Virus record (IMG/VR): IMGVR_UViG_3300012005_000004
Span: 16,370-80,369 of that record
Origin: a virus
DNA: 64,000 nucleotides
Reading direction: 5' to 3' (one strand)
Shown here piece by piece: positions 25,851-58,385 of this stretch (the stretch's first letter is position 1; every line of letters begins with the position of its first letter). Position numbers and translations under genes: made by a program. The notes beneath the pieces were generated by a model that saw only the letters and a list, made by a program, of their open reading frames with translations, was not told the origin of the DNA and did no database searches.

Positions 25851-27839
25851 ATGGGCAAACTTCTTGAACGTTTCATGACGGACCTAGGCGGACGATCAAC
25901 AGATGATCTAATCCCACTCGAAGATTATCTCGAGCTCTGTAAGACAACCCCAGCAGTTTACGCATCTCCAGCTCAGCGTATGCTTAAGGCTATCGGTGAT
26001 CCAATCACGATCGACACGCGCAACGACACCCGGCTGGCCAAGGTGTTCGGCAACAAGATCATCCGTCAGTATCCAGCATTCAAGGATTTCTACGGCATGG
26101 AAGACGCGATCGAAAACATCGTGTCGTACTTCAAACACTCCGCTCAGGGTCTTGAAGAATCTAAGCAGATCCTGTACTTGCTTGGACCGGTCGGCGGCGG
26201 TAAATCGTCTTTGGCTGAAAAGCTAAAAGCTTTGATGGAAGATGTTCCGGTCTACATTCTCTGCACCCATGAAAAGGAAAAGAAGAACGAACACAGCACC
26301 GTCGAGAAATTTACCACTGAAGTATCTCCGGTCTTTGAAAATCCGCTCGGGTTGTTCCACGGAAAAGAATCGTACGTTACGATGCTCGCCGAAGAATATG
26401 ACATCCCAAAAACCGCGATTCGTACCATCCCATCGCCGTGGGCTGTTAAGAAGCTCGAAAGCTACGGCTATGATTTCTCAAAGTTCTATGTCAAGAAGAT
26501 CTATCCAAGCCGTCTTCGTCAAGAATGTATCGCTCGGGTTGAACCAGGCGATGAAAACAACCAGGATGTTTCTTCAATGGTCGGCGAGCTTAACATCCGC
26601 ATGCTCGAAAAGTTTGACCAGGATCACCCCTACGCTTACACCTTCTCGGGTGGATTGAACAAGGGTAATAATGGCTTGGTCGAAATGGTTGAAATGTTCA
26701 AGACCCCGATCAAGATGTTGAATCCTCTGCTGACGGCCACGCAAGATCGTAACTACACCGGTACGAAGCCGATTGGTTCGATTCCGTTTGACGGCATCAT
26801 CATGGCTCACTCGAACGAATCTGAATGGTCGCAGTTTAAGAATAACAAGACAAACGAAGCGTTCCTCGATCGCGTCTACGTTGTTCACGTTCCATATTGC
26901 ACACGGGTCAATGAAGAAATTTCGATTTACAAAAAGCTATTAGCTCACTCTGAACTGTTCAAGGCGCCTTGTGCTCCTGGAACTCTCGAGTTCCTCGCGC
27001 AATTCTGCGTTATGTCTCGTCTTGAAGAGCCTGGCAACTCAACTCTGTACTCAAAGATGCGAGTCTACAACGGCGAAAACGTCAAGAACGATGATCCGAA
27101 GGCTAAGCCTATCCAAGAATACAAGGATGCGGCCGGAGTCAACGAAGGCATGAAGGGTTTGTCAACTCGTTTTGCCTTCAAGATCCTCTCGAAGACGTTC
27201 AACTTTGACACCGAAGAAGTTGCGGCAAATCCGATCCACCTGATGTATGTCCTCAAGACGTCCATCGCCCACGAGCAATTTGACAGCGAAAAGAATGATG
27301 CGCTGTTGGAAAATCTCGACGGTGTGCTGTCGGACAAGTACATGGAGTTCCTCGAGAAGGATATCCGCGCATCGTTCCTGGATTCATTCCAGGACCTCTG
27401 CCAAAATGTCTTCGAGAACTACTTTTACTACGCCGATGCGTGGGTTCAGGACCAGGAGTTCCGCGATGCAGATACAGGCGTCATGCTTGATCGGCCGGCC
27501 ATCAACGCCGAGCTGGAGAAGATCGAGAAGCCTGCCGGCATCTCTAACCCGAAGGACTTCCGTAATGACATCACGAACTTTGTGATCCGTTATAAGTCTG
27601 ATCATGGTGGTCAGCTGCCGAAGTGGGATTCTTTCGCTAAGATGCGGGACGTGATCGAGAAGAAAGTTTTGGCTTCGACGGATGAGATCCTTCCGGTCAT
27701 CTCATTTGCACCGAAGCGCTCGGAGCAAGACCAGAAGAAACATGAGCAGTTTGTTGGAAAGATGGCGGCGCGCGGTTACACCGAACGCCAAACTCGATTC
27801 CTTTGCGAATGGTTCATGCGTTCCAGGAAAGCGTCGTAA
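25851..27839 (+). CDS. PrkA/YeaG-family AAA+ serine protein kinase
   Basis: The 662-aa product matches PrkA (bacterial about 640 aa) throughout. It has an N-terminal FYGMEDAIENIVSYFKHSAQ block near residue 80, Walker A LGPVGGGKSS at 111-120 and FSGGLNKGNNGLVEMVEMFK near 264. PFDGIIMAHSNESEW follows near 310, then AFLDRVYVVHVPYC near 340 and a C-terminal helical domain. PrkA is a soluble AAA+ kinase (YeaG in E. coli) linked to starvation and stress. Its usual partners YeaH and SpoVR/YcgB are both encoded within the next 5 kb. AAAGGAAA precedes the ATG. Confidence 0.92.
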   Translation: MGKLLERFMTDLGGRSTDDLIPLEDYLELCKTTPAVYASPAQRMLKAIGDPITIDTRNDTRLAKVFGNKIIRQYPAFKDFYGMEDAIENIVSYFKHSAQGLEESKQILYLLGPVGGGKSSLAEKLKALMEDVPVYILCTHEKEKKNEHSTVEKFTTEVSPVFENPLGLFHGKESYVTMLAEEYDIPKTAIRTIPSPWAVKKLESYGYDFSKFYVKKIYPSRLRQECIARVEPGDENNQDVSSMVGELNIRMLEKFDQDHPYAYTFSGGLNKGNNGLVEMVEMFKTPIKMLNPLLTATQDRNYTGTKPIGSIPFDGIIMAHSNESEWSQFKNNKTNEAFLDRVYVVHVPYCTRVNEEISIYKKLLAHSELFKAPCAPGTLEFLAQFCVMSRLEEPGNSTLYSKMRVYNGENVKNDDPKAKPIQEYKDAAGVNEGMKGLSTRFAFKILSKTFNFDTEEVAANPIHLMYVLKTSIAHEQFDSEKNDALLENLDGVLSDKYMEFLEKDIRASFLDSFQDLCQNVFENYFYYADAWVQDQEFRDADTGVMLDRPAINAELEKIEKPAGISNPKDFRNDITNFVIRYKSDHGGQLPKWDSFAKMRDVIEKKVLASTDEILPVISFAPKRSEQDQKKHEQFVGKMAARGYTERQTRFLCEWFMRSRKAS

Positions 27840-28006
27840 TGAATAGCCGAGAGATGTTTGAGCAGTCATTCAAGCGTCCCTCGGACTATTTTAGGTTGAC
27901 AGCCGAGCATCAATGGGAAATTGATGCTCGGCTTGGAATCCTAGATTGGGACGGGAAGAACTTGACAGAAGAAGATCATCTTAGATTTAGAAAACATTAT
28001 GAATGA
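27839..28006 (+). CDS. Small hypothetical protein, 55 aa
   Basis: The start overlaps the PrkA stop (TAATG). The product is soluble and charged (LTEEDHLRFRKHYE). An intrinsic terminator begins 5 nt after it. No family recognised. Confidence 0.6.
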   Translation: MNSREMFEQSFKRPSDYFRLTAEHQWEIDARLGILDWDGKNLTEEDHLRFRKHYE

Positions 28007-28010
28007 GCAA

Positions 28011-28040
28011 ATGGAGAGTATTTTACTCTCCATTATTTTT
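28011..28040 (+). terminator. Intrinsic terminator
   Basis: ATGGAGAGTA, TTT, TACTCTCCAT then TATTTTT, ending the PrkA transcription unit. Read-through could supply the downstream genes. Confidence 0.82.
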
Positions 28041-28047
28041 AGAGAAC

Positions 28048-28647
28048 ATGAAAAATATAAAGATCATATCAGGGGGTCAAACAGGGGCCGACCTAGCTGG
28101 GTTGTGGGTAGCAAAGTTATTTGGATTACAGACAGGAGGGATGGCTCCTAAGGGATGGAAGACGCTGATAGGTTCAATGCCTCAGCTTGAAACCCTATTT
28201 CAAATGGGAGAGTCCGCAAGCGGATATCATGGCAGAACATTAGAAAATTGCGAGATGTCTGACATAACGCTGATCTTTGCATCTAATATTAAGTCGCCAG
28301 GTACCAAGCTAACTCTTCACCATTGTGTCAAGAACAAGATTCACTATCAAATCTTTGCGTTCGGAGACGATGCGGTTACTGCATCAGATCAAGCACTAGG
28401 AAGATTAGTAACAGTTTTGCAAAATCAACTTGCGGTGAATGAAGATTCGATCATTAACATCGCGGGTAATTCAACCTCGACATCCTCACAGACCTTCAAG
28501 TTTACATTTCTCTTGTTGTGTAAAGCTTTTGAGCAAGTTCTCAGATTTAAACCAGAGCAGCTGAAGAATCATGGTATAGATAAGGTAGAGGCGATGGCAC
28601 GAGACCGCTATGATCAATCAACTTTTGATTTTCTTACAAAAGTGTGA
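28048..28647 (+). CDS. SLOG-fold protein (molybdenum-carrier/YpsA-like)
   Basis: I start at the ATG at 28048 because an in-frame ATG at 28003 would place the terminator hairpin inside the gene. The 199-aa product begins IKIISGGQTGADLAGLW, with a GWKT segment near residue 33. This is the signature of the SLOG-superfamily proteins annotated as putative molybdenum carriers. The fold binds nucleotides or nucleotide-like ligands. The second half is helical. It sits between the PrkA and class I phosphodiesterase genes. Confidence 0.75.
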   Translation: MKNIKIISGGQTGADLAGLWVAKLFGLQTGGMAPKGWKTLIGSMPQLETLFQMGESASGYHGRTLENCEMSDITLIFASNIKSPGTKLTLHHCVKNKIHYQIFAFGDDAVTASDQALGRLVTVLQNQLAVNEDSIINIAGNSTSTSSQTFKFTFLLLCKAFEQVLRFKPEQLKNHGIDKVEAMARDRYDQSTFDFLTKV

Positions 28648-28728
28648 GCGGTGAGATCAAAATTTCTTTTAGTATCTTTTTGAGAAGATCTATATTAGAA
28701 TAGATCTAATCATGGAGAATTCAAGGAA

Positions 28729-29490
28729 ATGAAGGATAATAACTCAAAGCTTCTCGGATTCAATGTTGCACAAGCTGCCTCTCAGTTTCGCTTGATGCAG
28801 CATCACGAATTGGTTAGCTACATCTTTCGCTCGAATGGTGTTGAGGATTACCTTGATTATTTCAATGCCCACAATCCATCTAGCGATATCCCATATCACA
28901 ATAAGTACCACACTTATTGTATGGCATTGAATGTCTATGAGGCTTCTCTCTATTACAATCTTTCTATAGAAGCTCGACGAGCTCTTCTAGTTGCCGCATT
29001 ATTTCACGATTATGATCATTCTGGTGGACGCAAAACTGACGACATAAACGTCGCCATAGCCGCAAATAACCTGGTTGATGCTCATAAACAGCTTGTAGAA
29101 ATATACCGAACTCAACCGGTCTCCGACGTCGGAGACCACTTCGCTCACTTAACTCCAAAAGAGCTCATTGATGCGATTGAGACGTTGCTTATTACTAAAT
29201 ACCCCTATGATGGACCTCCAGTCACGATGCTTCAAAAGATCATTCGTGATGCGGACTTGATGCAAGTATACGAAGAAGATGCTGATCGTCTGCGACAGCA
29301 ATTTCTCGGTCTAAAGGCTGAGATGGAGCTTACGCGCGGACCCTTTACACCAGAACAATGGGGCGATGGATGTCGTGATTTTAACGATGCTACCGTCTGG
29401 CATACCCAGTGGGCCCAGGACAAGGCGGTCGCCTTGGACCAAAAGGCTTGCACGGAACATCTTAGAAATTTATTGATAGGAAACAAATGA
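28729..29490 (+). CDS. Class I cyclic-nucleotide phosphodiesterase-like HD protein
   Basis: The 253-aa product carries HNKYH near residue 56 (the HxxxH element of class I phosphodiesterases), followed by ALFHDYDHSGG near 90 (the HDxxHxG metal motif) and IIRDADLMQVYEED near 172. This set matches the catalytic core of PDEase_I proteins, which hydrolyse cAMP or cGMP. It lacks a regulatory domain. General HD phosphohydrolase activity is an alternative. It overlaps the DUF444 gene by 4 nt. TAGAAT at 28696 may be its -10. Confidence 0.75.
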   Translation: MKDNNSKLLGFNVAQAASQFRLMQHHELVSYIFRSNGVEDYLDYFNAHNPSSDIPYHNKYHTYCMALNVYEASLYYNLSIEARRALLVAALFHDYDHSGGRKTDDINVAIAANNLVDAHKQLVEIYRTQPVSDVGDHFAHLTPKELIDAIETLLITKYPYDGPPVTMLQKIIRDADLMQVYEEDADRLRQQFLGLKAEMELTRGPFTPEQWGDGCRDFNDATVWHTQWAQDKAVALDQKACTEHLRNLLIGNK

Positions 29491-30872
29491 GCATCGTCAT
29501 CAATGATAAGCGTAAAGTAACAAGGGATCGCACGTCTGAAAATCGGGCTCGTTTCCTTCGACGCATCAAGGGAACCATCAAGGAACAGATGAATGATATC
29601 ATCGGTGGAAAATCTCTCAAGGAGATGGACAAGACCGGTGGTAACATAAAGGTTAATCGAAAAACGATAACCGAGCCTCAGATCTGGCACACCGACGGAG
29701 GTAACGTCGATCGCGTCTTGCCTGGAAATGATCAATATGTTCCAGGAGATACCATCCAGAAACCACGCCAAGGCGGAGGTCAAGGACGCGGCAAGAATGC
29801 AAGCGATGGTCCAAACTCTGAAGATGATTTTGTGATTGAGCTGTCTCCTAAGGAATTCATGGATTATTTCTTTGAAGACCTAGAGCTGCCAGACATGATG
29901 AAAACCCAGCTGACGAAGATCAAGGAATATAAGCGTGAAAATGCTGGATTCCAAACAGATGGATCTCCGAATCGGCTGTCGGTCATTCGATCTTACAAAC
30001 AATCTTTCGCGCGCCGAATGATGATGAATGGAGTCTTCAAAGATCGCATCGCTATTCTCAACGAGCTACTTTACGTATTGACAAACTCGGAGATGCTAGC
30101 GGTGAAAATGATATCACTTCCACTTACGATTGATATCAAAGAAGCTGTGATCGAGACCGATAAGCTGCCTGAACGTGGAACATTTGAGCATGATCTTTTA
30201 GTCGCTACTGTCCAAGCTGAGATAGATCATTTGCACTTCAAGTGCGAGAACATGGCGATGTTCGAAGAGATGGACATGCGCTATAGAACTGTTATTAAGC
30301 GTGAGATTCCGATCGCACACGCTACCATGATGATGATCATGGATAACTCAGGATCGATGGGTGAGAAGGAAAAGACGATCGCTAGGAAGTTCTTCTGGTT
30401 GCTATACTCCTTCCTGGTCCGCGCATACGAGAAAGTTGACATGGTATTCATCTCACACACCACCGAAGCATCTGAGATGACCGAAGAAGAATTCTTTAAC
30501 ACTCGCGAGAACGGTGGAACTATCGTATCTTCAGCTTTGGATCTCACTAACGAGATCATCCAGAAGCGTCTGTTAAATAAGACTAACATCTATGTTGCTC
30601 AAGTTTCTGATGGTGACAATGTAGATTCTGACAATGACACTTGCATTGACATTCTTACCGATCAAATCCTCCCAAACATTCGCTACATGGCTTATGTTCA
30701 GGTAGATGATTATCATGGAGATGAAAATGCAAATGTCTATGGGAAAGGTTTATGGAGAGCTTATAAGTCGATCTCAGATACTAACTCGCGGTTGCAGATA
30801 AAACGCGTGCAAGATGAAAATAACATCTACCCTGTCTTCAGGGATTTGTTCAAAAAGAAAGAAACATCATAA
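29487..30872 (+). CDS. DUF444 (YeaH/UPF0229) family protein
   Basis: The 461-aa product has the family layout. A basic N-terminus (NRARFLRRIKGTIKEQ) comes first, then a Gly-rich linker (PRQGGGQGRGKN near 92), a conserved central block and a C-terminal vWA domain with MIDAS motif MDNSGSMGEKEK near residue 284. A TIVSSALDL segment lies near 343. In E. coli yeaH is co-transcribed with the PrkA gene yeaG, and here the PrkA homologue lies 1.6 kb upstream. The biochemical role is unknown. Confidence 0.9.
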   Translation: MSIVINDKRKVTRDRTSENRARFLRRIKGTIKEQMNDIIGGKSLKEMDKTGGNIKVNRKTITEPQIWHTDGGNVDRVLPGNDQYVPGDTIQKPRQGGGQGRGKNASDGPNSEDDFVIELSPKEFMDYFFEDLELPDMMKTQLTKIKEYKRENAGFQTDGSPNRLSVIRSYKQSFARRMMMNGVFKDRIAILNELLYVLTNSEMLAVKMISLPLTIDIKEAVIETDKLPERGTFEHDLLVATVQAEIDHLHFKCENMAMFEEMDMRYRTVIKREIPIAHATMMMIMDNSGSMGEKEKTIARKFFWLLYSFLVRAYEKVDMVFISHTTEASEMTEEEFFNTRENGGTIVSSALDLTNEIIQKRLLNKTNIYVAQVSDGDNVDSDNDTCIDILTDQILPNIRYMAYVQVDDYHGDENANVYGKGLWRAYKSISDTNSRLQIKRVQDENNIYPVFRDLFKKKETS

Positions 30873-31081
30873 TGAAAGTCAAAGTAGAGATTAAGTACCC
30901 ACGGTTCGCGGTTCAGTTTGGAAGACAGATCGCCTTTGGACAGATCTACAAAGATGGTGCATTGTTCTTTGACGGATCAATCGCTCAAATTTTAGAGGTT
31001 GTTAAAGTGCAAGACTTTGAGATCGAGAACGCGCAGGAGATTCTTGACCTTATAGTTCGACTCCACGGGTTTGCTTGCTAA
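30872..31081 (+). CDS. Hypothetical protein, 69 aa
   Basis: The start overlaps the DUF444 stop (TAATG). A beta-rich N-terminus and helical C-terminus with a final Cys. No family recognised. Confidence 0.6.
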   Translation: MKVKVEIKYPRFAVQFGRQIAFGQIYKDGALFFDGSIAQILEVVKVQDFEIENAQEILDLIVRLHGFAC

Positions 31082-31090
31082 AAGGCAGAG

Positions 31091-31606
31091 ATGAAACTCT
31101 CAACGATTTGGCATCTTCTCGCCTTAGCGACGGCTGCTGGTTTAGTAGCAATTTGCTATCCAGAACCTACTAAGAAACCAGAGCTTAAGCAAGTGGTTTC
31201 TACCACCTTAACTAAGGTCCCTGGAGTCTCTGAAGGTATAGAGCTGTACATAGACACCAAGACCATCGAAGATTTTGTTGATTCAAAGTCCTCAGTTCGA
31301 CACGCTGTAGTGGTGTACTATTTTACAACACCACTTGTCATTAGAGGTAAGGATGTTTATTACATGCAAAAAGATGCTTTTTATGCATGTGATGATAATC
31401 TCTTCTTAAACGGTGATATAATCTTCTATGACAAGGCCGCCAGCCAGCTTTTCAAAGGACCAACTGGTGTCGGTGTTGAAAAACCAGAGAAGGATACAAA
31501 CTCAGAGGTTGAGATGAAATTTATCTGTGGCTCCAATGTTACAAAGAAGTCAGCTCCAAAGAGCTCAATCGGCCCAATAAAGCCACTTAATCACATTTAC
31601 ATTTAA
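31091..31606 (+). CDS. Secreted or membrane-anchored protein with N-terminal signal
   Basis: The 171-aa product has a hydrophobic stretch at residues 5-23 (IWHLLALATAAGLVAICY), then a beta-rich domain with two cysteines (ACDDN, FICGS) that could form a disulfide in the periplasm. The pattern is loosely like surface-adhesin E domains. It lies between DUF444 and SpoVR genes. Confidence 0.6.
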   Translation: MKLSTIWHLLALATAAGLVAICYPEPTKKPELKQVVSTTLTKVPGVSEGIELYIDTKTIEDFVDSKSSVRHAVVVYYFTTPLVIRGKDVYYMQKDAFYACDDNLFLNGDIIFYDKAASQLFKGPTGVGVEKPEKDTNSEVEMKFICGSNVTKKSAPKSSIGPIKPLNHIYI

Positions 31607-31617
31607 GGAGCATTAAC

Positions 31618-33162
31618 TTGTCCGAAGATAAACTATTATTCAAGGCCGGTGATGATTGGACGTTTGAGATGCTCGATAAGATCTGGACCGAGATCGAGAT
31701 CATCGCTAAGGAAGAGCTGCGAATTCCTTATTACAAACCACAGATTGAAGTTATCACAGCACGACAGATGCTTGATGCTTATACCTCTGTCGGTATGCCA
31801 ACATACTACAAACACTGGTCATACGGTAAGGAATTTGTCCAAAGCGAGAAGCAGTATCTCAATGGACAGATGGGTCTCGCTTACGAGATTGTCATTAACT
31901 CTGACCCATGCATCGCTTACCTGATGGAAGAAAACAATGCCCTGATGCAAACCTTGGTCATGGCTCACGCTTCAGTCGGCCACGCGGCGGTTTTCACGAA
32001 CAACTACCTATTCCGCCAGAACACAGACGCGTCGGCGATCGTAGATTATCTCAACTTTGCTAGGGATTACCTGAAAAAGTGCGAGGAAAAGTATGGCTTT
32101 GATGAGGTAGAAGGTGTACTAGATGCATGCCATGCGTTATCGAACTACGGTGTCGATAAGTACAAGCGTCCACCAAAGATTTCGGCTGACAAAGAAGCTA
32201 AGAAAGCGATGGAGCGCTTTGAGCGCGAATTTGCTGACTACGATCCGATCTGGGCTAAGATCGGAAAACGGAAGGCTGATGCTAAGGATGTAAATCCTGT
32301 CACTGATACTAAGCTTGCTGAATCACAGGAAAACATCCTCTATTTTATCGAGAAAAATGCTCCACACCTTCCAGGTTGGAAACGTGAGGTCATCCGCATC
32401 GTACGGAAGATCAGTCATTATTTCTCACCGCAGCGTGCCACCAAGGTTCTGAATGAAGGGTACGCATCATTCACCCACTTCTACATTATGAATCGACTTC
32501 ATGAGAAGGGTTTCATCGACGGTGGTTCGATGATTGAATTCTTCGCTAGCCACAGCGGAGTTCTAACTCAACATAAATTTTCACAGTTCAACCCGTACAA
32601 GCTTGGTTTTTCGATCTTCATGGACATCAAGAGGATGGGTGAGGATCCAACCGATGAAGATCGATTATACTTTCCTGACCTTGCTGGAAAAGACTGGGTC
32701 ACCGAGATTAACTATGCGATGAAGAACTTCAAGGATGAAACATTTATCCTTCAGTACCTATCTCCAAAGGTCGCTCGAGACATGCAGTTGTTCGTAATTA
32801 ACTCAGAGTCGACAGGAGCTACACAATACGGCGTAACCGAGATCAGTAACCTTGAGGGTTTTGAAACTTTGCGTAAGAAATTGGCCGCACAGTTCGCGAT
32901 GGAAAATATCATCCCCGACATCCAAATTTCAAACGTTGATTACAAGCGCTCACGAAAGCTTACTCTTGAGCACCTGGTTAAGAACGGGAAGCCAATCAAT
33001 ATTGATGATACTCGTCGCGTTGTCCAACACGTCGCCGATCTGTGGGAATACTCAGTCACGCTAGATACCTTCGAATATGACAAGGAAGATGATGCAACCA
33101 AGCTTCACATCACAGCCCTTGGAAAATACTCAATGAAATCATATGAAGAAACCCACAGTTAA
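31618..33162 (+). CDS. SpoVR/YcgB family protein
   Basis: The start is TTG with AAGGAG 7 nt upstream. The 514-aa length fits SpoVR/YcgB (about 510). Recognisable blocks are an early PYYKPQIEVITARQML, SVGHAAVFTNNYLFR near residue 119, a WKREVIRIVRKISHYF segment near 257 and NEGYASFTHFYIMNRL near 280. The His- and Glu-rich helices recall a metal site. SpoVR proteins accompany PrkA and DUF444 in stress and sporulation clusters, and all three are present here. Confidence 0.9.
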   Translation: MSEDKLLFKAGDDWTFEMLDKIWTEIEIIAKEELRIPYYKPQIEVITARQMLDAYTSVGMPTYYKHWSYGKEFVQSEKQYLNGQMGLAYEIVINSDPCIAYLMEENNALMQTLVMAHASVGHAAVFTNNYLFRQNTDASAIVDYLNFARDYLKKCEEKYGFDEVEGVLDACHALSNYGVDKYKRPPKISADKEAKKAMERFEREFADYDPIWAKIGKRKADAKDVNPVTDTKLAESQENILYFIEKNAPHLPGWKREVIRIVRKISHYFSPQRATKVLNEGYASFTHFYIMNRLHEKGFIDGGSMIEFFASHSGVLTQHKFSQFNPYKLGFSIFMDIKRMGEDPTDEDRLYFPDLAGKDWVTEINYAMKNFKDETFILQYLSPKVARDMQLFVINSESTGATQYGVTEISNLEGFETLRKKLAAQFAMENIIPDIQISNVDYKRSRKLTLEHLVKNGKPINIDDTRRVVQHVADLWEYSVTLDTFEYDKEDDATKLHITALGKYSMKSYEETHS

Positions 33163-40377: not shown

Positions 40378-42498
40378 ATGCAACGGATTTATAAGGATAA
40401 TGCCGTGTTGCGAGGCATTATCGAAAACACCATGGATGCGATCATCGTCATTAACGATGATAATAAAGTAGTAGAATGGAACAAGTATGCCACTGATTTA
40501 TTTGGATATACCCAAGATGAAGCTATCGGTAGATCATTATCTTCTCTGATTATACCAGATACGTTCATTCCTCACCATGAGGCATGCGTTAATCGAGCTG
40601 TCCAAAATCAAAAAGATCATTGTTATCTTAGAACTGAGATGGATGCACGCAGAAAAGATGGTTGTAAGCTCAAAATTGAGCTTACAGTTTCTCAGATAAC
40701 TCTAAAAGATCAAAGCGGAATAAAGAATAGTTTGTTTAGCGTAGCAATACGTGATATCACAGTTCAAAAGAATAGTCAAGACCGTGTGATTCGCCAAGCT
40801 TCTCTTTTAGATCTTTCGCGTGATGGTATCTATGTTATTGATAAAGATCAGAGGTTGACTTGGTGGAATAAGGGGGCTGAGCTGCTCTACGGATATTCCA
40901 CTGATGAAGCTATCGGTCATATAGCTTATGAATTGTTACAAACAGATTACCCACTAAGTGGTAGGAATGCCTTTGAAGAGATCTTTCAAACACTTCTACA
41001 TTCTGGTTCTTGGGAAGGGGAGTTGACGCAACTCACAAAAGACGGTAATCGCGTTACAGTTCTCAGCCGTTGGGTACTTGATATCGAATATGATGAAGTG
41101 TTAATAACTAATACCAATATCACAGAGCTAAAACGAAATCAAGAAAAAATCGAATATCTCGCTACGCATGATGATCTCACTGGTTTGCCAAACCGTCGGT
41201 TGCTAGAAGATAGAATAAACCATGCGATAATCCAATGTGAACGAAATGGTGGTCACGTTGGTGTTCTATTCTTAGACCTTGATCGTTTCAAGATCATAAA
41301 TGATTCGCTTGGTCATGACATGGGAGATAAACTACTCAATGAGGTTAGTCAAAGATTAGTCAAATCAGTGAGACGTGAAGATACCGTAGCTCGTCTAGGT
41401 GGAGATGAATTTGTAGTAGTTCTTGAGAATGTATCAAATATTGAAGATATAGCTGAGATCTCTTCCAAGATACTGAATTCTATTCAACAACCTATTTCAT
41501 TGGGAGAAGGTGCTGGGAAGAGCATCTCAATCAACACTAGCATTGGTGGTTCCGTCTACCCAAAAGATGGCCTAGACGTTATCACATTGATGAGGAACGC
41601 TGATTTAGCTATGTATAAGTCTAAAGAATATGAAATGGGGGCATTTCGTTTCTACAGCCCAGAGATGAATGAGTTAGTTCTTCAACGACTGACAAATGAA
41701 AATAATTTAAGAAAAGCATTGAATAATGAAGAATTCATTCTCCATTTTCAACCGAAGATCTGTAGCGCAGAAGGGCGTACCACCGGTGTTGAAGCATTGA
41801 TTCGATGGAACCACCCAGAAAAGGGTTTAATCATGCCATCTGAATTTATTGGATTAGCTGAAGAGATCGGGTTAATCAATAAAATTGGTGAGTGGGCTCT
41901 ATACGCAGCGTGCGAGCAAAATAAAGCATGGCAAAATATGGGATTGCCTCTCATACAGATGTCAGTAAACTTGTCAGTGCACCAGCTCACGCCAAATTTA
42001 GTTAACATCGTATCAAAAGCGTTGAAAATGTCTGGCTTAGATCCAAAGTGGTTAGACCTAGAAGTTACCGAATCTGCTGCGATGAAAGATGTAGACATGA
42101 CGATTGAAACCTTAGGTAAACTTCGAAAGCTTGGTGTGTCAATCTCTATCGATGATTTTGGAACTGGATATTCATCTCTAGAATATCTTAAAAAGATGCC
42201 GTTAGATAACTTGAAGATTGATCAATCATTTGTTAGTGGCATTCCAACAGATTCTAATGACCTTTGTATCGTGGCTGCAATCATTGGTCTGGCTCATAAC
42301 ATGAAGCTACGAGTGATCGCTGAAGGAGTGACATCTAAAGAACAAGTTGCGTTCTTAGACACACACAAATGTGATGAGATGCAGGGTTACCTATTCAGCC
42401 GTCCAGTGACAGCTGAGGACGTAGAGCAAAGGTTGATCGGTCAAGTTTGGAGCTACCCATACCAAGGAAATCATGAACTACGAACGTGCGATGATTGA
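40378..42498 (+). CDS. PAS-PAS-GGDEF-EAL cyclic di-GMP enzyme
   Basis: The 706-aa product has two PAS domains (about 8-130 and 135-255), a GGDEF domain (about 260-425) and an EAL domain (about 440-700). The cyclase motif is intact (ARLGGDEFVVVLE near 340) and RRED lies five residues before it, a feedback-inhibition I-site. The EAL motif (TGVEALIRWNHPE near 468), DDFGTGYSSLEYL near 594 and LKIDQSFV near 616 are intact. It has no membrane helices. Both synthesis and breakdown of c-di-GMP are therefore possible, with the balance set by the PAS domains. Confidence 0.92.
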   Translation: MQRIYKDNAVLRGIIENTMDAIIVINDDNKVVEWNKYATDLFGYTQDEAIGRSLSSLIIPDTFIPHHEACVNRAVQNQKDHCYLRTEMDARRKDGCKLKIELTVSQITLKDQSGIKNSLFSVAIRDITVQKNSQDRVIRQASLLDLSRDGIYVIDKDQRLTWWNKGAELLYGYSTDEAIGHIAYELLQTDYPLSGRNAFEEIFQTLLHSGSWEGELTQLTKDGNRVTVLSRWVLDIEYDEVLITNTNITELKRNQEKIEYLATHDDLTGLPNRRLLEDRINHAIIQCERNGGHVGVLFLDLDRFKIINDSLGHDMGDKLLNEVSQRLVKSVRREDTVARLGGDEFVVVLENVSNIEDIAEISSKILNSIQQPISLGEGAGKSISINTSIGGSVYPKDGLDVITLMRNADLAMYKSKEYEMGAFRFYSPEMNELVLQRLTNENNLRKALNNEEFILHFQPKICSAEGRTTGVEALIRWNHPEKGLIMPSEFIGLAEEIGLINKIGEWALYAACEQNKAWQNMGLPLIQMSVNLSVHQLTPNLVNIVSKALKMSGLDPKWLDLEVTESAAMKDVDMTIETLGKLRKLGVSISIDDFGTGYSSLEYLKKMPLDNLKIDQSFVSGIPTDSNDLCIVAAIIGLAHNMKLRVIAEGVTSKEQVAFLDTHKCDEMQGYLFSRPVTAEDVEQRLIGQVWSYPYQGNHELRTCDD

Positions 42499-44711: not shown

Positions 44712-46148
44712 ATGAAGACCAACGCAAAGGCAGTAAACAACCGTCGCACCGAAGGTGGTGCACGTGCATCGGCGATCACGCCGGAACAAGAGCTGCGCCG
44801 TCAAGTAATGGCACTGATGCTGTGGGAAAATGGCGGACAGACAGAAAAGAATGTCGCATCGCTGATCCCGAAGTGTCGGCCAGAGTTCGTGGCCGCGTGC
44901 GCGTTCGAAGCTCGCACGAAGATGAAGCTGCGCCACGTTCCGCTGTTCATCGCGCGCGAGATGGCTCGGCACCCAGAGCACAAGTCCCTGGTGGGTAAGT
45001 TGCTGCCTGACCTGATCAACCGTGCCGATGAGATCAATGAGTTCATGGCGATCTACTGGAAGAACGGTAAGACCCCGATCTCGGCGCAAGTCAAGAAGGG
45101 TTTGGCCGCAGCTTTCAAGAAGTTCGGTCCGTATGCGCTGGCGAAGTACAATAAGACCGACATGGCCATCAAGATGCGTGATGTGATGTTCTTGACTCAC
45201 GCTAAGCCTGCCGATGCTCCTGGTGACAAGTACACCAAGGAAGTTCGTAAGGCTGAACGTGCTGGACAAAAGGCTCGTCAGCTGACCAAGGGCGAAAAGC
45301 TGTTCTCGGACTTGATCAATGACAAGCTGGAAACTCCTGACACATGGGAAACCAACCTGTCGGCTGGTGCAGACAAGAAGGAAACGTTTGAACGATTGAT
45401 GTCTGAAAACAAGCTGGGTGCATTGGCATTCATTCGTAACCTGCGGAACATGGTTCAGGCTGGTGTGAGCCGGCAGGCTATGAAGGAGTACGGAGCCAAG
45501 GTAAACTTGGAATACGTGCTGCCGTTCCGGTTCTTGTCAGCAGCTCGTCAAGTTCCAGGAATGGAAGACCTGTTGGAGCCGATGATGTTGCGTTGCCTGG
45601 AAGGTCAACCGAAGCTGCCGGGTAAGACCGTGCTGATTCTCGACACTTCTGGTTCGATGCACGCCGGAATCTCGGGCAAGTCTGACCTGACTCGTTTGGA
45701 CACGGCCGCAGCGCTGGCGATCTTGGTTCGTGAAATTTGCGAAGATGTCGTCATCTACTGTACCGCAGGTTCGGATGGAGCACGTCGTCACGCTACCATG
45801 CAGATCCCAGCACGTCGTGGATTTGCGCTGGCGGATTACATCCGTAGCAATGAAGTTCAAGGCAAGATCGGTGGTGGCGGTATCTTCTTGAAGCAGTGCC
45901 TGGACTTCGTGGAAATGAACGAAAAGACGGCAGACCGCGTGATCACGTTGACCGACGAGATCGACTGCGATGACAAGGCGTCTCCGGAGGGAGCTTCGAC
46001 TTTCGGTGAGAACAACTACATCATCAACGTCGCTACGCAGGCTAACGGTATCGCGTACTCGAAGTTCACGCACATCAACGGTTGGAGCGAAGCTGTAATC
46101 GACTTCATCCGCGTGCTTGAAGAAGACCAAGCGGCTGAATTGCAGTAA
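44712..46148 (+). CDS. Ro60/Rsr-like TROVE-domain RNA-binding protein
   Basis: The 478-aa product has a helical-repeat TROVE region (residues 20-290) with the typical ENGGQTEKNVASLIPK, FIAREMARHPEHK and FIRNLRNMVQAG blocks. A vWA domain follows with MIDAS motif LILDTSGSMHAG near 307 and TLTDEIDCDDK near 416. Ro60 orthologues form a ring that binds misfolded RNA and Y RNAs, and in bacteria tether PNPase. The gene is more GC-rich than its neighbours, suggesting separate ancestry. A tRNA-like RNA follows, as at bacterial rsr loci. Confidence 0.9.
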   Translation: MKTNAKAVNNRRTEGGARASAITPEQELRRQVMALMLWENGGQTEKNVASLIPKCRPEFVAACAFEARTKMKLRHVPLFIAREMARHPEHKSLVGKLLPDLINRADEINEFMAIYWKNGKTPISAQVKKGLAAAFKKFGPYALAKYNKTDMAIKMRDVMFLTHAKPADAPGDKYTKEVRKAERAGQKARQLTKGEKLFSDLINDKLETPDTWETNLSAGADKKETFERLMSENKLGALAFIRNLRNMVQAGVSRQAMKEYGAKVNLEYVLPFRFLSAARQVPGMEDLLEPMMLRCLEGQPKLPGKTVLILDTSGSMHAGISGKSDLTRLDTAAALAILVREICEDVVIYCTAGSDGARRHATMQIPARRGFALADYIRSNEVQGKIGGGGIFLKQCLDFVEMNEKTADRVITLTDEIDCDDKASPEGASTFGENNYIINVATQANGIAYSKFTHINGWSEAVIDFIRVLEEDQAAELQ

Positions 46149-47861: not shown

Positions 47862-48542
47862 ATGCAAAGACAAGCTTCACGTAGAAAGTATCATTACATT
47901 TACAAGACCATTTGTTTAGTGAGTAACCGATACTACATCGGAATGCATTCTACCGATGATCTTGATGATGGATATGTAGGTTCTGGGAAACGATTATGGC
48001 ATTCAATCCGTAAACATGGGTTAGAAAAACATAAATGTGAAATTTTAGAATTTTTAGATTCAAGAGAAAAACTTAAGATTCGTGAACGAGAGATCGTTAA
48101 TGAAGATTTCCTTAAAGATCCTCAATGCATGAATCTGACGTTGGGTGGTGGGTGTGGATGGGATTATACAAATTCAGTATTAACCGACGAACAAAGAACT
48201 AAAGCTGGAAAAGCTGGTGGATATGCTAATAGAACATTTGAGCAACGATCAGCTGCTGGTAAAATAGGTGGTAAGATTGGAGGAGTACTAACCTGGTTAA
48301 AGAATAGAGAACAAGCTGAAGCATATAGGAAAATAGCTATTAAAATCGCTACATTACCAGAAAACATAGAAAAAAGAAAAATCACCTTTATGAAAATGAA
48401 TCATCAAAAAGGAGAAAAGAATTCTCAATTTGGTACAAAATGGATTCATAATGATGATTTGAAACTTAGTAAAAAGTGCAATAAGAATGATCTATTAGAT
48501 CATTTAGAAAATGGTTGGAAGCTTGGAAGAAAGATAAAATAG
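47862..48542 (+). CDS. GIY-YIG homing endonuclease
   Basis: The 226-aa product has an N-terminal GIY-YIG module (YHYIYKTICLVSNRYYIGMH near residue 11), a catalytic Arg/Glu region (RLWHSIRKHG, IREREIVNED) and a C-terminal part with repeated KAGG/KIGG nuclease-associated motifs (TKAGKAGGYAN, SAAGKIGGKIGG). It is free-standing within a tRNA cluster, a common target for such elements. It is more AT-rich than its neighbours, consistent with mobility. Its stop codon lies in the first bases of the following tRNA. Confidence 0.9.
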   Translation: MQRQASRRKYHYIYKTICLVSNRYYIGMHSTDDLDDGYVGSGKRLWHSIRKHGLEKHKCEILEFLDSREKLKIREREIVNEDFLKDPQCMNLTLGGGCGWDYTNSVLTDEQRTKAGKAGGYANRTFEQRSAAGKIGGKIGGVLTWLKNREQAEAYRKIAIKIATLPENIEKRKITFMKMNHQKGEKNSQFGTKWIHNDDLKLSKKCNKNDLLDHLENGWKLGRKIK

Positions 48543-48613
48543 GTCACTGATGTAGTGATAGCATGACAGTCTCCAAAACTGTTTGTCAGAGTTTGATTCT
48601 CTGGTGGCCTGCC
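48541..48613 (+). tRNA. tRNA-Trp (CCA)
   Basis: AGGTCAC/GTGGCCT acceptor. Anticodon arm ACAGT CTCCAAA ACTGT gives CCA. T arm is CAGAG TTTGATT CTCTG, discriminator G, 3' CC. Bases 2 and 3 of the endonuclease TAG stop are its first two bases. Confidence 0.88.
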
Positions 48614-48619
48614 GTTATT

Positions 48620-48708
48620 GGAAGTGTATTGTGCCAGGTGGCACAGATGGTTTGCTAAACCATTGGGCTCAGTTAATGGGCCGGGTTCGAGTCCCTGCGC
48701 TTCCGCCA
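48620..48708 (+). tRNA. tRNA-Ser (GCU)
   Basis: GGAAGTG/CGCTTCC acceptor with discriminator G and encoded CCA. Anticodon arm ATGGT TTGCTAA ACCAT gives GCU, and a long variable arm is present. Confidence 0.88.
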
Positions 48709-48783
48709 GTTGGTTGACCGCATGACCGTTCCGGTAAGTAAGATCAAAGGTCGTTAATATTGACACCAACATTTAAGAAGTAT

Positions 48784-48870
48784 GCCCGAGTGGTGAAATG
48801 GTATCCACAGAAGACTTAAAATCTTCCGGCTGTAATGGCCATACCGGTTCGAGTCCGGTCTCGGGCACCA
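48784..48870 (+). tRNA. tRNA-Leu (UAA)
   Basis: GCCCGAG/CTCGGGC acceptor with ACCA. Anticodon arm GAAGA CTTAAAA TCTTC gives UAA. Class II variable arm; T arm ACCGG TTCGAGT CCGGT. Confidence 0.92.
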
Positions 48871-48872
48871 TT

Positions 48873-48959
48873 GGAAGTTAAACTGCGTAGGACGCAGCGC
48901 TGCCTCGAAAACAGTAGGACTCAGTAATGGGTTGAGTTTCGATTACTCTTTCTTCCGCC
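48873..48959 (+). tRNA. tRNA-Ser (CGA)
   Basis: GGAAG acceptor with discriminator G. Loop CTCGAAA gives CGA. The variable arm is long and the T loop is TTCGATT. The 3' end is CC without A. Confidence 0.8.
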
Positions 48960-48967
48960 GACCTCAT

Positions 48968-49054
48968 GCACCTATGGCGGAACTGGTAGACGCGCAAGAT
49001 TGAGGGTCTTGTGTCCGAAAGGACGTGGGAGTTCGAATCTCCCTAGGTGCACCA
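48968..49054 (+). tRNA. tRNA-Leu (GAG)
   Basis: GCACCTA/TAGGTGC acceptor with ACCA. Anticodon arm CAAGA TTGAGGG TCTTG gives GAG. Class II variable arm GTCC GAAA GGAC; T arm GGGAG TTCGAAT CTCCC. Confidence 0.93.
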
Positions 49055-49069
49055 AGTAATATCACACTT

Positions 49070-49158
49070 CCCCGTGTGGACAAATTGGTAAAGTTGCCGC
49101 ACTCAGACTGCGGAGCCGCGAAAGCGTATTGTCGGTTCGAACCCGACCATGGGGACCA
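49070..49158 (+). tRNA. tRNA-Leu (CAG)
   Basis: CCCCGTG/CATGGGG acceptor with ACCA. Anticodon arm CCGCA CTCAGAC TGCGG gives CAG. Class II variable arm CGC GAAA GCG; T arm GTCGG TTCGAAC CCGAC. Confidence 0.93.
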
Positions 49159-49653: not shown

Positions 49654-49735
49654 GGGATTGTGGCTAATACAAATCGGCACAGTTATCAGGTTTAGAACCT
49701 GAGCCTTTGAGGGTTCGAATCCCTCCAGTCCTACC
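49654..49735 (+). tRNA. tRNA-Leu (UAG)
   Basis: GGGATTG/CAGTCCT acceptor (a G.U first pair). Anticodon arm TCAGG TTTAGAA CCTGA gives UAG. T arm GAGGG TTCGAAT CCCTC. D arm like the Leu-CAA gene; variable region short. Its 3' CC abuts the RNase P RNA 5' end. Confidence 0.85.
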
Positions 49736-50128
49736 GATCACAAAGCTGACCTATCGCTGAGGTGTAAAAATTCTTAGAGAAATCTAAGTTGTAAACCCTT
49801 AGAGGAAAGTCGGGGCTACAAAGAGCAGGGATTGTCGCTCTGTGGAAGTAAGAGGTGTTGATTGAAAACTACCCTGAGGTCTGAAAAGGCAACAGGCTCT
49901 CGCAATCATCACTAGATATCAGATCTGTGTGGTAACAGCACAAACAACCTCGTATCCTCGCTTACGTTATACCACAACGACTCCGTAGCAAGCCAAACAG
50001 GTACCGTTGACGTTGCTGGCCGAGGTACCGGGTTGGTGCAGCCGAAAGGCACGAGGGTGTATGGCAACCCACACCGTCGTAGACGAATGATAGGATAAAA
50101 CAGAACTCCGCTTACGGGCTTTGTGATC
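49736..50128 (+). ncRNA. rnpB: RNase P RNA (A-type, complete)
   Basis: P1 is an 11-bp perfect helix, GATCACAAAGC (49736-49746) with 50118-50128. Conserved blocks are all present in order: AAGCTGACC at the 5' end, AGAGGAAAGTCGGGGCT, GAGCAGGG, TGGTAACAG, GTAGCAAGCCAAACAGG, GGTACCGGGTTGG, GTAGACGAATGATAGG and AAACAGAACTCCGCTTACGGGC. The P4 helix AAG(U)CGGGG/CTCCGCTT keeps the universal bulged U. Compared with E. coli (AAG(U)CCGGG/CCCGGCTT) it swaps a C-G pair for G-C, a compensatory change that argues for a functional molecule. It would be the catalytic RNA maturing tRNA 5' ends, presumably with host RnpA. Confidence 0.95.
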
Positions 50129-50131
50129 AAT

Positions 50132-50219
50132 ATGTCGACTTAACATGGTCTGAACATGGCCACGGGCAGGTGATACTTCCCGTGGTGTGGGCAATACGTG
50201 GAGGAGCCTTAATCGACAT
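50132..50219 (+). ncRNA. Unclassified structured RNA after RNase P RNA
   Basis: ATGTCGACTTAA (50132-50143) pairs with TTAATCGACAT (50209-50219) around one bulged base, enclosing a 7-bp hairpin CCACGGG/CCCGTGG (50160-50166, 50179-50185) and a small CATG/CATG hairpin. There is no T arm or CCA, so it is not a tRNA. It ends just before the next promoter and has no reading frame. Confidence 0.55.
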
Positions 50220-50715: not shown

Positions 50716-50800
50716 GGGGCTGTGATGTAAGACAAACCCGGTACAGTCAGCAGATTTAAATCCTGCCATTTTTACGAGTTCGAATCTCGTCAGCCCTACC
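50716..50800 (+). tRNA. tRNA-Leu (UAA), second copy
   Basis: GGGGCTG/CAGCCCT acceptor. Loop TTTAAAT closed by GCAGA/CCTGC (one A.C mismatch) gives UAA. T arm ACGAG TTCGAAT CTCGT; 3' ACC. D arm of leucine type. Confidence 0.8.
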
Positions 50801-50804
50801 ATCA

Positions 50805-52260: not shown

Positions 52261-52335
52261 GGGCTGTTAGCACAGTGGTTAGTGCAATGGACTCCAAACC
52301 CATTGACGGGAGTTCGATTCTCTCACGGCTCGCCA
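52261..52335 (+). tRNA. tRNA-Trp (CCA), second copy
   Basis: GGGCTGT/ACGGCTC acceptor with discriminator G and CCA. Loop CTCCAAA gives CCA, closed by ATGGA/CCCAT with one A.C mismatch. T arm GGGAG TTCGATT CTCTC. It is isolated from the main cluster. Confidence 0.75.
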
Positions 52336-57754: not shown

Positions 57755-58041
57755 ACAAATACTCAACATCACTTGCAATTTTTGCTCAAGCTCCAGCAAT
57801 GAGTATTGACCAGGAGCTTACCGTTAAGCTTAAGGTTCTGTCGGAACAGAAGGATGATGTGAAATCAGACCAGGTACTTGAGATCCTTGATCTCGGAGCC
57901 AGATATTCAATGATGAGCGAGTTTGCGATGCGGGCTCTTGACGAGCTGTGGTACATAATGATCAAAGATGAAGGTAAGACAGAGGAACAAGCTAGGTTGG
58001 AAGCTGAGCCAAGACGCAAGGCTCATGAGGCTAGCGAATAA
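57751..58041 (+). CDS. Hypothetical helical protein, 96 aa
   Basis: ATGA overlap with the hydrolase gene. The product is all-helical and acidic. No family recognised. Its stop codon lies inside an ATAAATA motif that precedes the tmRNA. Confidence 0.62.
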   Translation: MNKYSTSLAIFAQAPAMSIDQELTVKLKVLSEQKDDVKSDQVLEILDLGARYSMMSEFAMRALDELWYIMIKDEGKTEEQARLEAEPRRKAHEASE

Positions 58042-58044
58042 ATA
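58038..58044 (+). promoter_or_regulatory. ATAAATA late-promoter-like motif before tmRNA
   Basis: ATAAATA ends about 20 nt before the tmRNA acceptor piece. Expression from it would place tmRNA in the late phase. Confidence 0.35.
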
Positions 58045-58059
58045 TTAGTTCATGATTGT

Positions 58060-58385
58060 GTGGGAAGGTAACTTCTCGAATGTCAATTTGAATGTAGTTT
58101 GGACAAGGGTTCGATTCCCTTCACCTCCACCGCGTTTTTAAGTTTTTAATGGGGGTGCCCTGGTTTCGACAGGCTAAGCTAGAAGAGAATACAATCCGGT
58201 AGGCGATGACCGTTAATCAAGCAAACGTTTAAATGCAAATGAAGCATTTTTTGGAAAGTTCGCTCTCGTAGCGTAGTTTCCACGAGGTTAACCACCTTGT
58301 CTCCGAACGGTTGAGGGAGCAACGCTCTCTTAGGGGTTTTAGCCGGTAGTCCTATCAACAGAATGAAACCGGCGCCAACGCATTA
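58060..58385 (+). ncRNA. ssrA: Circularly permuted (two-piece) tmRNA
   Basis: The acceptor piece comes first: AAGGG TTCGATT CCCTT (T arm), CACCTCC, ACC (ends 58131). After about 19 nt the coding piece starts GGGGGTGCCCTGGTTTCGAC (58151). GGGGGTG and CACCTCC form the 7-bp acceptor stem. CAGGCTA (58170-58176) pairs with TAGTTTG (58095-58101), and AGAAG (58181-58185) with CTTCT (58072-58076), as helix P2. The tag reading frame GCA at 58235 to TAG at 58276 encodes ANEAFFGKFALVA, with the usual hydrophobic ALVA end. Helix GCCGGT/ACCGGC lies near the 3' end. Exact ends are estimated. Confidence 0.92.

Follow-up and report, generated by a model that had tools for sequence, protein, structure and literature searches.

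A variant ribonuclease P RNA encoded beside tRNA genes in a viral record, with relatives in large phage contigs

Does a phage carry its own ribonuclease P (RNase P) RNA and, if so, what could it be for? The question is raised by a 393-nt, type-A-like element at positions 49736..50128 (+) of a 64,000-nt stretch of viral DNA, hereafter the window, which comprises bases 16370-80369 of the 80,369-bp IMG/VR virus record IMGVR_UViG_3300012005_000004. An original prediction, made from the letters alone, had proposed a complete A-type RNase P RNA here. The Rfam model of bacterial class A RNase P RNA (RF00010) matched the element from end to end. In a 671-base scan, the match covered 49738-50130 (+) and model positions 1-367 of 367, with 72.9 bits and an E-value of 3.7e-22. 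When the whole record was scanned, the same match had an E-value of 1.0e-23 and was the only one in the record.

A default Rfam scan does not list the element because its score is below the curated cut-off (gathering score) of 100 bits. The original prediction had named a score below threshold as grounds for abandoning it, and the score does fall short, yet the match is full length and its E-value is minute. Among the control genomes with an RF00010 match, 3/11 also scored under 100 bits. The cut-off is an annotation rule and not a structural feature. Considering the E-value, and that the poorly modelled part is a rebuilt specificity domain, it is the wrong test for this RNA. The whole RNA folds with -124 kcal/mol (z -2.5). 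We are nearly certain that the element is an RNase P RNA, and the end-to-end match and the phage genes that surround it bear out the claim of a complete RNase P RNA in a phage genome.

The helices and the catalytic core, all on the plus strand, could be followed in the sequence. P1 closes the RNA with 11 of 11 pairs, as predicted, between its 5′ strand (GATCACAAAGC, 49736-49746) and its 3′ strand (GCTTTGTGATC, 50118-50128). P2 (CCTATC at 49750-49755 with GATAGG at 50089-50094) is paired at all six positions, and compensatory change maintains both helices in the sister RNAs described below. By sequence and RF00010 alignment, the core contains the bulged U of P4 and conserved regions I, IV and V; the conserved blocks follow each other in order, as had been reported. 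Region I, with the P4 5′ strand GAGGAAAGTCGGGGCT, spans 49802..49817 and holds the bulged U at 49810, while region V, with the P4 3′ strand (ACAGAACTCCGCTTACGG), spans 50100..50117. P15 and its loop L15 occupy 50000..50029, where six of six pairs were counted by eye and the loop has no GGU.

The second P4 pair past the bulged U is G-C in the window RNA and C-G in E. coli. This change had been offered as a sign that the RNA is diverged but under structural selection. We rejected it as proof of selection at the phage level, since bacteria show the same variant: 31 genome contigs, most of them from Acidimicrobiia/Actinomycetota, have a P4 strand with GUCGGG. The claim of structural selection stands on other grounds, because related RNAs in six other viral contigs show compensatory change, which one sequence could not.

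These relatives were found by an exact search of IMG/VR with CAGGGNTTGTCGCTCTGTGG, the motif at the entrance of the specificity domain. The six contigs are G051 (385 kb), G067 (358 kb), G066 (108 kb), G065, G068 and G069. G051 encodes a terminase and a tail sheath, and G067 a terminase (E 4.9e-133) and a sheath match. All six carry tRNA genes, mostly as arrays, and the upstream neighbour of the G051 RNA is likewise a tRNA-Leu, 3 nt away. RF00010 scores in this group, which lacks P8/P9, range from 37 to 86 bits, with all six sister contigs below the cut-off. We read the helices of the seven RNAs by hand and compared pairing between each RNA's own strands with pairing between strands swapped among RNAs. 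Own strands paired better in P1 (0.99 versus 0.51), P2 (1.00 versus 0.74) and P15 (0.95 versus 0.60), each across seven RNAs, and in P3 (1.00 versus 0.62, six RNAs). P1, P2, P3 and P15 vary in sequence and remain paired; the structure of the seven RNAs is under selection. In G065-G069, the sequence of region I is GAGG[A/U]AGUU and that of region V is GGCUA; read by hand, one A-U pair of P4 has been lost on both strands at once. In both G065 (L193) and G068 (L196), ARAGORN also called a tRNA-Pyl close to the RNase P RNA, and its CUA anticodon could make it an amber suppressor.

The specificity domain (49828..49984, +; 157 nt) is where the window RNA departs from class A. In the folds, and with the shared entrance motif as a guide, the 5′ strand of P7 is followed by three bases and then by a P10-like stem, and the P8 and P9 hairpins are absent. 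Bacterial comparators, found by their P4 sequence, have the usual hairpin at the corresponding point. Because the P7-P8-P9-P10 junction of class A is missing, we class the window RNA as a variant RNase P RNA. The A-type assignment thus holds for the core blocks and for the match to model positions 1-367, and fails for P8 and P9. Two candidate motifs of the T-loop recognition module were picked out by eye, namely GAAAACTACC (49864..49873, +) as a J11/12 part and GGTAACAG (49931..49938, +) as an L14-like loop. Both are present in G065 and were not seen in G066 and G067, which retain just 84-89 nt of specificity domain.

The record around this RNA encodes phage proteins, including homologues of rIIA and rIIB, a DNA helicase, a DNA ligase and a tail-fibre gene, and a homing endonuclease gene adjoins its tRNA cluster. 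The helicase is 64% identical to that of G064, a 389-kb IMG/VR contig with a terminase and its own RNase P RNA (71.7 bits), whose specificity domain is shorter than, and different from, that of the window RNA. By Pfam, the record also has a PrkA-type kinase, with nearest relatives in one Enterobacter phage and in uncultured phages of about 640 kb. Since these helicase and kinase relatives belong to such large genomes, the record is probably a fragment of a huge phage. Searches for relatives by single proteins of the record reached one contig per protein.

How far does this kind of RNA extend? Screening IMG/VR with two short sequence patterns and then with RF00010 left, apart from the window's own record, 47 records with a match: G051 and 46 further ones. 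Of the contigs with such RNAs, G037, G047, G051 and G064 (a terminase in each), G039 and G067 encode phage hallmark proteins, with weaker matches in G045 and G003; the remaining contigs are viral by IMG/VR's call only. We set aside the isolate-derived contigs G034, G044, G050, G060 and G030, which have near-top scores and look like host rnpB at prophage edges. The phage RNA foreseen by the original prediction is real, although it is not the single curiosity it had seemed and belongs to an RNase P RNA family of huge phages. A tree of the catalytic core hints at several groups of phage RNase P RNAs; automatic core extraction failed for 11 sequences and put at least G068 and G055 in the wrong place, and the tree was used as a hint only.

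Known phages gave no such RNA. RF00010 had no match in ten known huge or jumbo phages, five of which were scanned with stricter filters able to lose weak matches. When the window RNA was compared by blastn with 50,697 phage records, only the tRNA flank was returned, and queries with the other phage RNase P RNAs reached no convincing GenBank phage. The records rejected were Microcystis phage MaAM05 (L168, MW495066.1), in which fabI, engB and glyS surround the RNase P-like match, making this part bacterial-looking, and which may be mislabelled; Acinetobacter MD-2021a, which looks like a prophage edge; AGRM01000002, titled Salmonella enterica; and faecal 'Bacteriophage sp.' records, unverified and unannotated.

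Many of the matched RNAs lie within tRNA arrays, with up to 40 tRNAs in 18 kb. In 14 of the 32 contexts examined, a tRNA ended within 6 nt of the 5′ end of the RNA, and in seven a tRNA started within 6 nt of its 3′ end; several contigs are near-duplicates (G027/G029, G021/G059, G022/G033, G038/G045 and G039/G057), which makes the number of independent cases smaller. As a control, 30/31 rnpB loci on genome contigs had 0-1 tRNA in the surrounding 4-8 kb. The exception, L219 (LNEN01000305.1), is filed in a Cytophagales metagenome-assembled genome and carries an RNase P RNA and five tRNAs. At 146,658 bp it has the length of viral contig G038, and it is probably that contig binned into a bacterial genome.

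In the window, tRNA-Leu(UAG) (49654..49733, +) lies ahead of the RNase P RNA. This tRNA is real by RF00005 (38.9 bits) and is not called by ARAGORN. The RNA had been placed at the very next base; it starts instead after a gap of 2 nt, since the discriminator base at 49733 is followed by CC and then by G49736, where P1 begins. The tRNA is thus followed by CCG and not CCA, so its CCA is not fully encoded. The contact between GGU of RNase P RNA and the CCA of tRNA is well established, and the absence of GGU from L15 and of an encoded CCA from the adjacent tRNA fit each other, albeit weakly. Neither ARAGORN nor the sequence gave a tRNA abutting the 3′ side. Candidate substrates, all on the plus strand, are the products of a cluster with genes for five tRNAs (Trp, Ser, Leu, Leu, Leu; 48541..49158, ARAGORN), tRNA-Trp(CCA) (52261..52335, Rfam scan and ARAGORN) and a permuted, two-piece transfer-messenger RNA (tmRNA) with the predicted tag ANEAFFGKFALVA (58038..58367; RF04321, 123.4 bits, and ARAGORN). 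A permuted tmRNA is also present in sister G068 (L236:12249-12618).

What might the RNA do with such substrates? We searched for RnpA, the protein partner (PF00825), and found no match above the cut-off in 33 viral contigs with such RNAs, which from this group included G051 and the window, the latter through a record that is itself a fragment. A hit below the cut-off, with internal stops, was seen in G061, and the same search was positive in 10/14 control genomes. Thus, an RNA with this identity, conserved core, structural selection and tRNA adjacency comes with no RnpA found, and because of this it would have to use the host's RnpA or act alone. It is likely a functional tRNA-processing ribozyme that works with host RnpA. 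It would be transcribed with or beside the tRNAs, and 3′-end processing of tRNA-Leu would expose its 5′ end. Binding of host RnpA would then yield a hybrid enzyme that, in the infected cell, removes 5′ leaders from the pre-tRNAs and pre-tmRNA of the phage; the tRNAs and tmRNA on the record are plausible substrates for it. A specificity domain rebuilt in this way hints that the RNA is tuned to phage substrates, or to function when host RNase P is limiting. More tentatively, several huge-phage lineages may run their own RNase P, with a recruited host protein, a specificity domain favouring the phage tRNA array and a maturation that the enzyme itself assists by cutting tRNAs. Where a tRNA abuts the 3′ side (e.g. 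G004 and G055), an RNase P cut at the tRNA 5′ end would free the 3′ end of the RNA.

Several observations weigh against a working phage ribozyme. With no RnpA found, its function would depend on a host protein. The absence of P8 and P9, together with the 84-89-nt domains of G066 and G067, may mean that tRNA recognition is weak. In the strand comparison, the P4 core paired barely better in own than in swapped combinations (0.94 versus 0.87) and says little, and the helix limits were chosen by eye, which favours own pairs. Even so, P1 helices of 9-12 bp that differ in sequence are hard to attribute to hand-chosen limits.

An alternative reading is a decoy or modulator, an inefficient processor that binds host RnpA or pre-tRNAs, displaces host RNase P and reshapes the host's tRNA supply. 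Lacking any RnpA of phage origin that we could find, the RNA must compete for the host's, and its specificity domain is reduced or rebuilt. We nevertheless consider a decoy unlikely: it would not need the catalytic core in full, which is conserved, and the RNAs cluster with tRNA genes and not with known takeover genes. Immediate adjacency to tRNAs in many contigs, at times on both sides and with a gap of 2 nt in the window, would also suit a cis-acting element that works mainly on the adjoining tRNAs within their precursor transcript and not as a free enzyme. This is quite improbable, considering that no tRNA is near the RNAs of G064, G021 and G040, that some 0.9 kb separate the G069 RNA from its nearest called tRNA, and that the window RNA is closed by P1 as an independent unit without an abutting downstream tRNA. 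A recently captured or decaying host rnpB without function would explain the score below the family cut-off and the long divergence from bacterial models, and is contradicted by the retained blocks and by helices that, in seven RNAs, show compensatory changes and are intact, which make it highly improbable. Finally, viral collections do contain host rnpB, as the isolate-derived contigs and the GenBank 'phage' records with bacterial neighbours show, yet rIIA, rIIB, tail-fibre genes and a homing endonuclease beside the tRNAs in the window, and the recurrence of related RNAs in separate large contigs with terminases, leave hardly any room for an artefact, be it a viral contig with host DNA attached or a bacterial contig wrongly labelled viral. 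A functional tRNA-processing ribozyme thus remains our preferred reading.

Other elements were observed as well. Directly past the RNase P RNA, 50133-50219 (+) forms a long hairpin (-33 kcal/mol, z -1.8) that matches no Rfam family and is possibly another small RNA. A degenerate tRNA-like sequence at about 50716-50802 (+), called by neither ARAGORN nor Rfam, has a paired acceptor stem, a T-arm, an encoded CCA and apparently a UAA anticodon. A TROVE (Ro60-like) RNA-binding protein is encoded at 44712-46148 (+), about 3.6 kb ahead of the RNase P RNA, and in G010 too a member of this PHROG (phrog_850) is encoded close to the contig's RNase P RNA. We rejected the TROVE protein as a companion of these RNAs, as only G037 has a weak match to that of the window. 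Genes for the PrkA kinase and SpoVR at 25851-33162 (+), separated by a gene with a 'sporulation protein' PHROG match, constitute a bacterial stress operon on the phage genome. A PAS-GGDEF-EAL protein (40378-42498, +) is a cyclic-di-GMP enzyme on a phage. By PHROG, L002:14793-16046 (+) matches 2-aminooxy adenylosuccinate synthetase (PurZ-like) and may serve to supply the phage DNA with modified adenine, and L002:4888-5985 (+) is a nucleotidyltransferase with a match to RlaP (RNA repair) below the cut-off.

Full-text searches of open-access papers turned up no description of an RNase P RNA from a phage, in line with the original statement that no standard phage is known to supply one. Phage-encoded RNase P RNA thus appears, provisionally, to be undescribed. 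Al-Shayeb et al. 2020 (PMC7162821), who surveyed huge phages with finders for tRNA and tmRNA, make no mention of RNase P, and a study that applied every Rfam model to megaphage-like genomes saw nothing but tRNAs and a tmRNA (PMC8172020). Annotation by cut-off misses such viral RNA genes, given the 37-86 bits of the P8/P9-less group against the 100 required. An ancient and essential ribozyme, regarded as a cellular hallmark, is now seen in huge phages. It extends the translation-related parts supplied by phages to tRNA 5′ maturation and suggests a way for phages with large tRNA arrays to process them once host functions fail. It also provides structure-function work with naturally occurring RNase P RNAs whose specificity domains are rebuilt.

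Archaeal type T and organellar RNase P RNAs have kept the catalytic domain and shrunk the specificity domain. G066 and G067 resemble them in this shrinkage; lineages and protein partners differ. Among the closest known systems is bacterial class A RNase P RNA (RF00010, rnpB), which the window RNA matches over its full length with P1, P2, a bulged-U P4, P15 and the core blocks, and from which it differs in being phage-encoded, beside tRNAs, without P8/P9 and below the cut-off. The nearest published hint comes from Mycobacterium austroafricanum and M. sp. YC-RL4, which have extra, unexplained RNase P RNAs with a different specificity domain (PMC9569102). These share with the window RNA, by description, an altered specificity domain, conserved functional residues and a suspected horizontal transfer, but they reside in bacterial genomes and have been assigned no phage origin. 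The tRNA arrays, tmRNA and translation factors of huge phages (PMC7162821) belong to the same kind of genome and the same functional theme. T4-like phages leave the cutting of their tRNA precursors to host RNase P (PMC11143913); there too the phage tRNAs need RNase P, but the RNA subunit is the host's.
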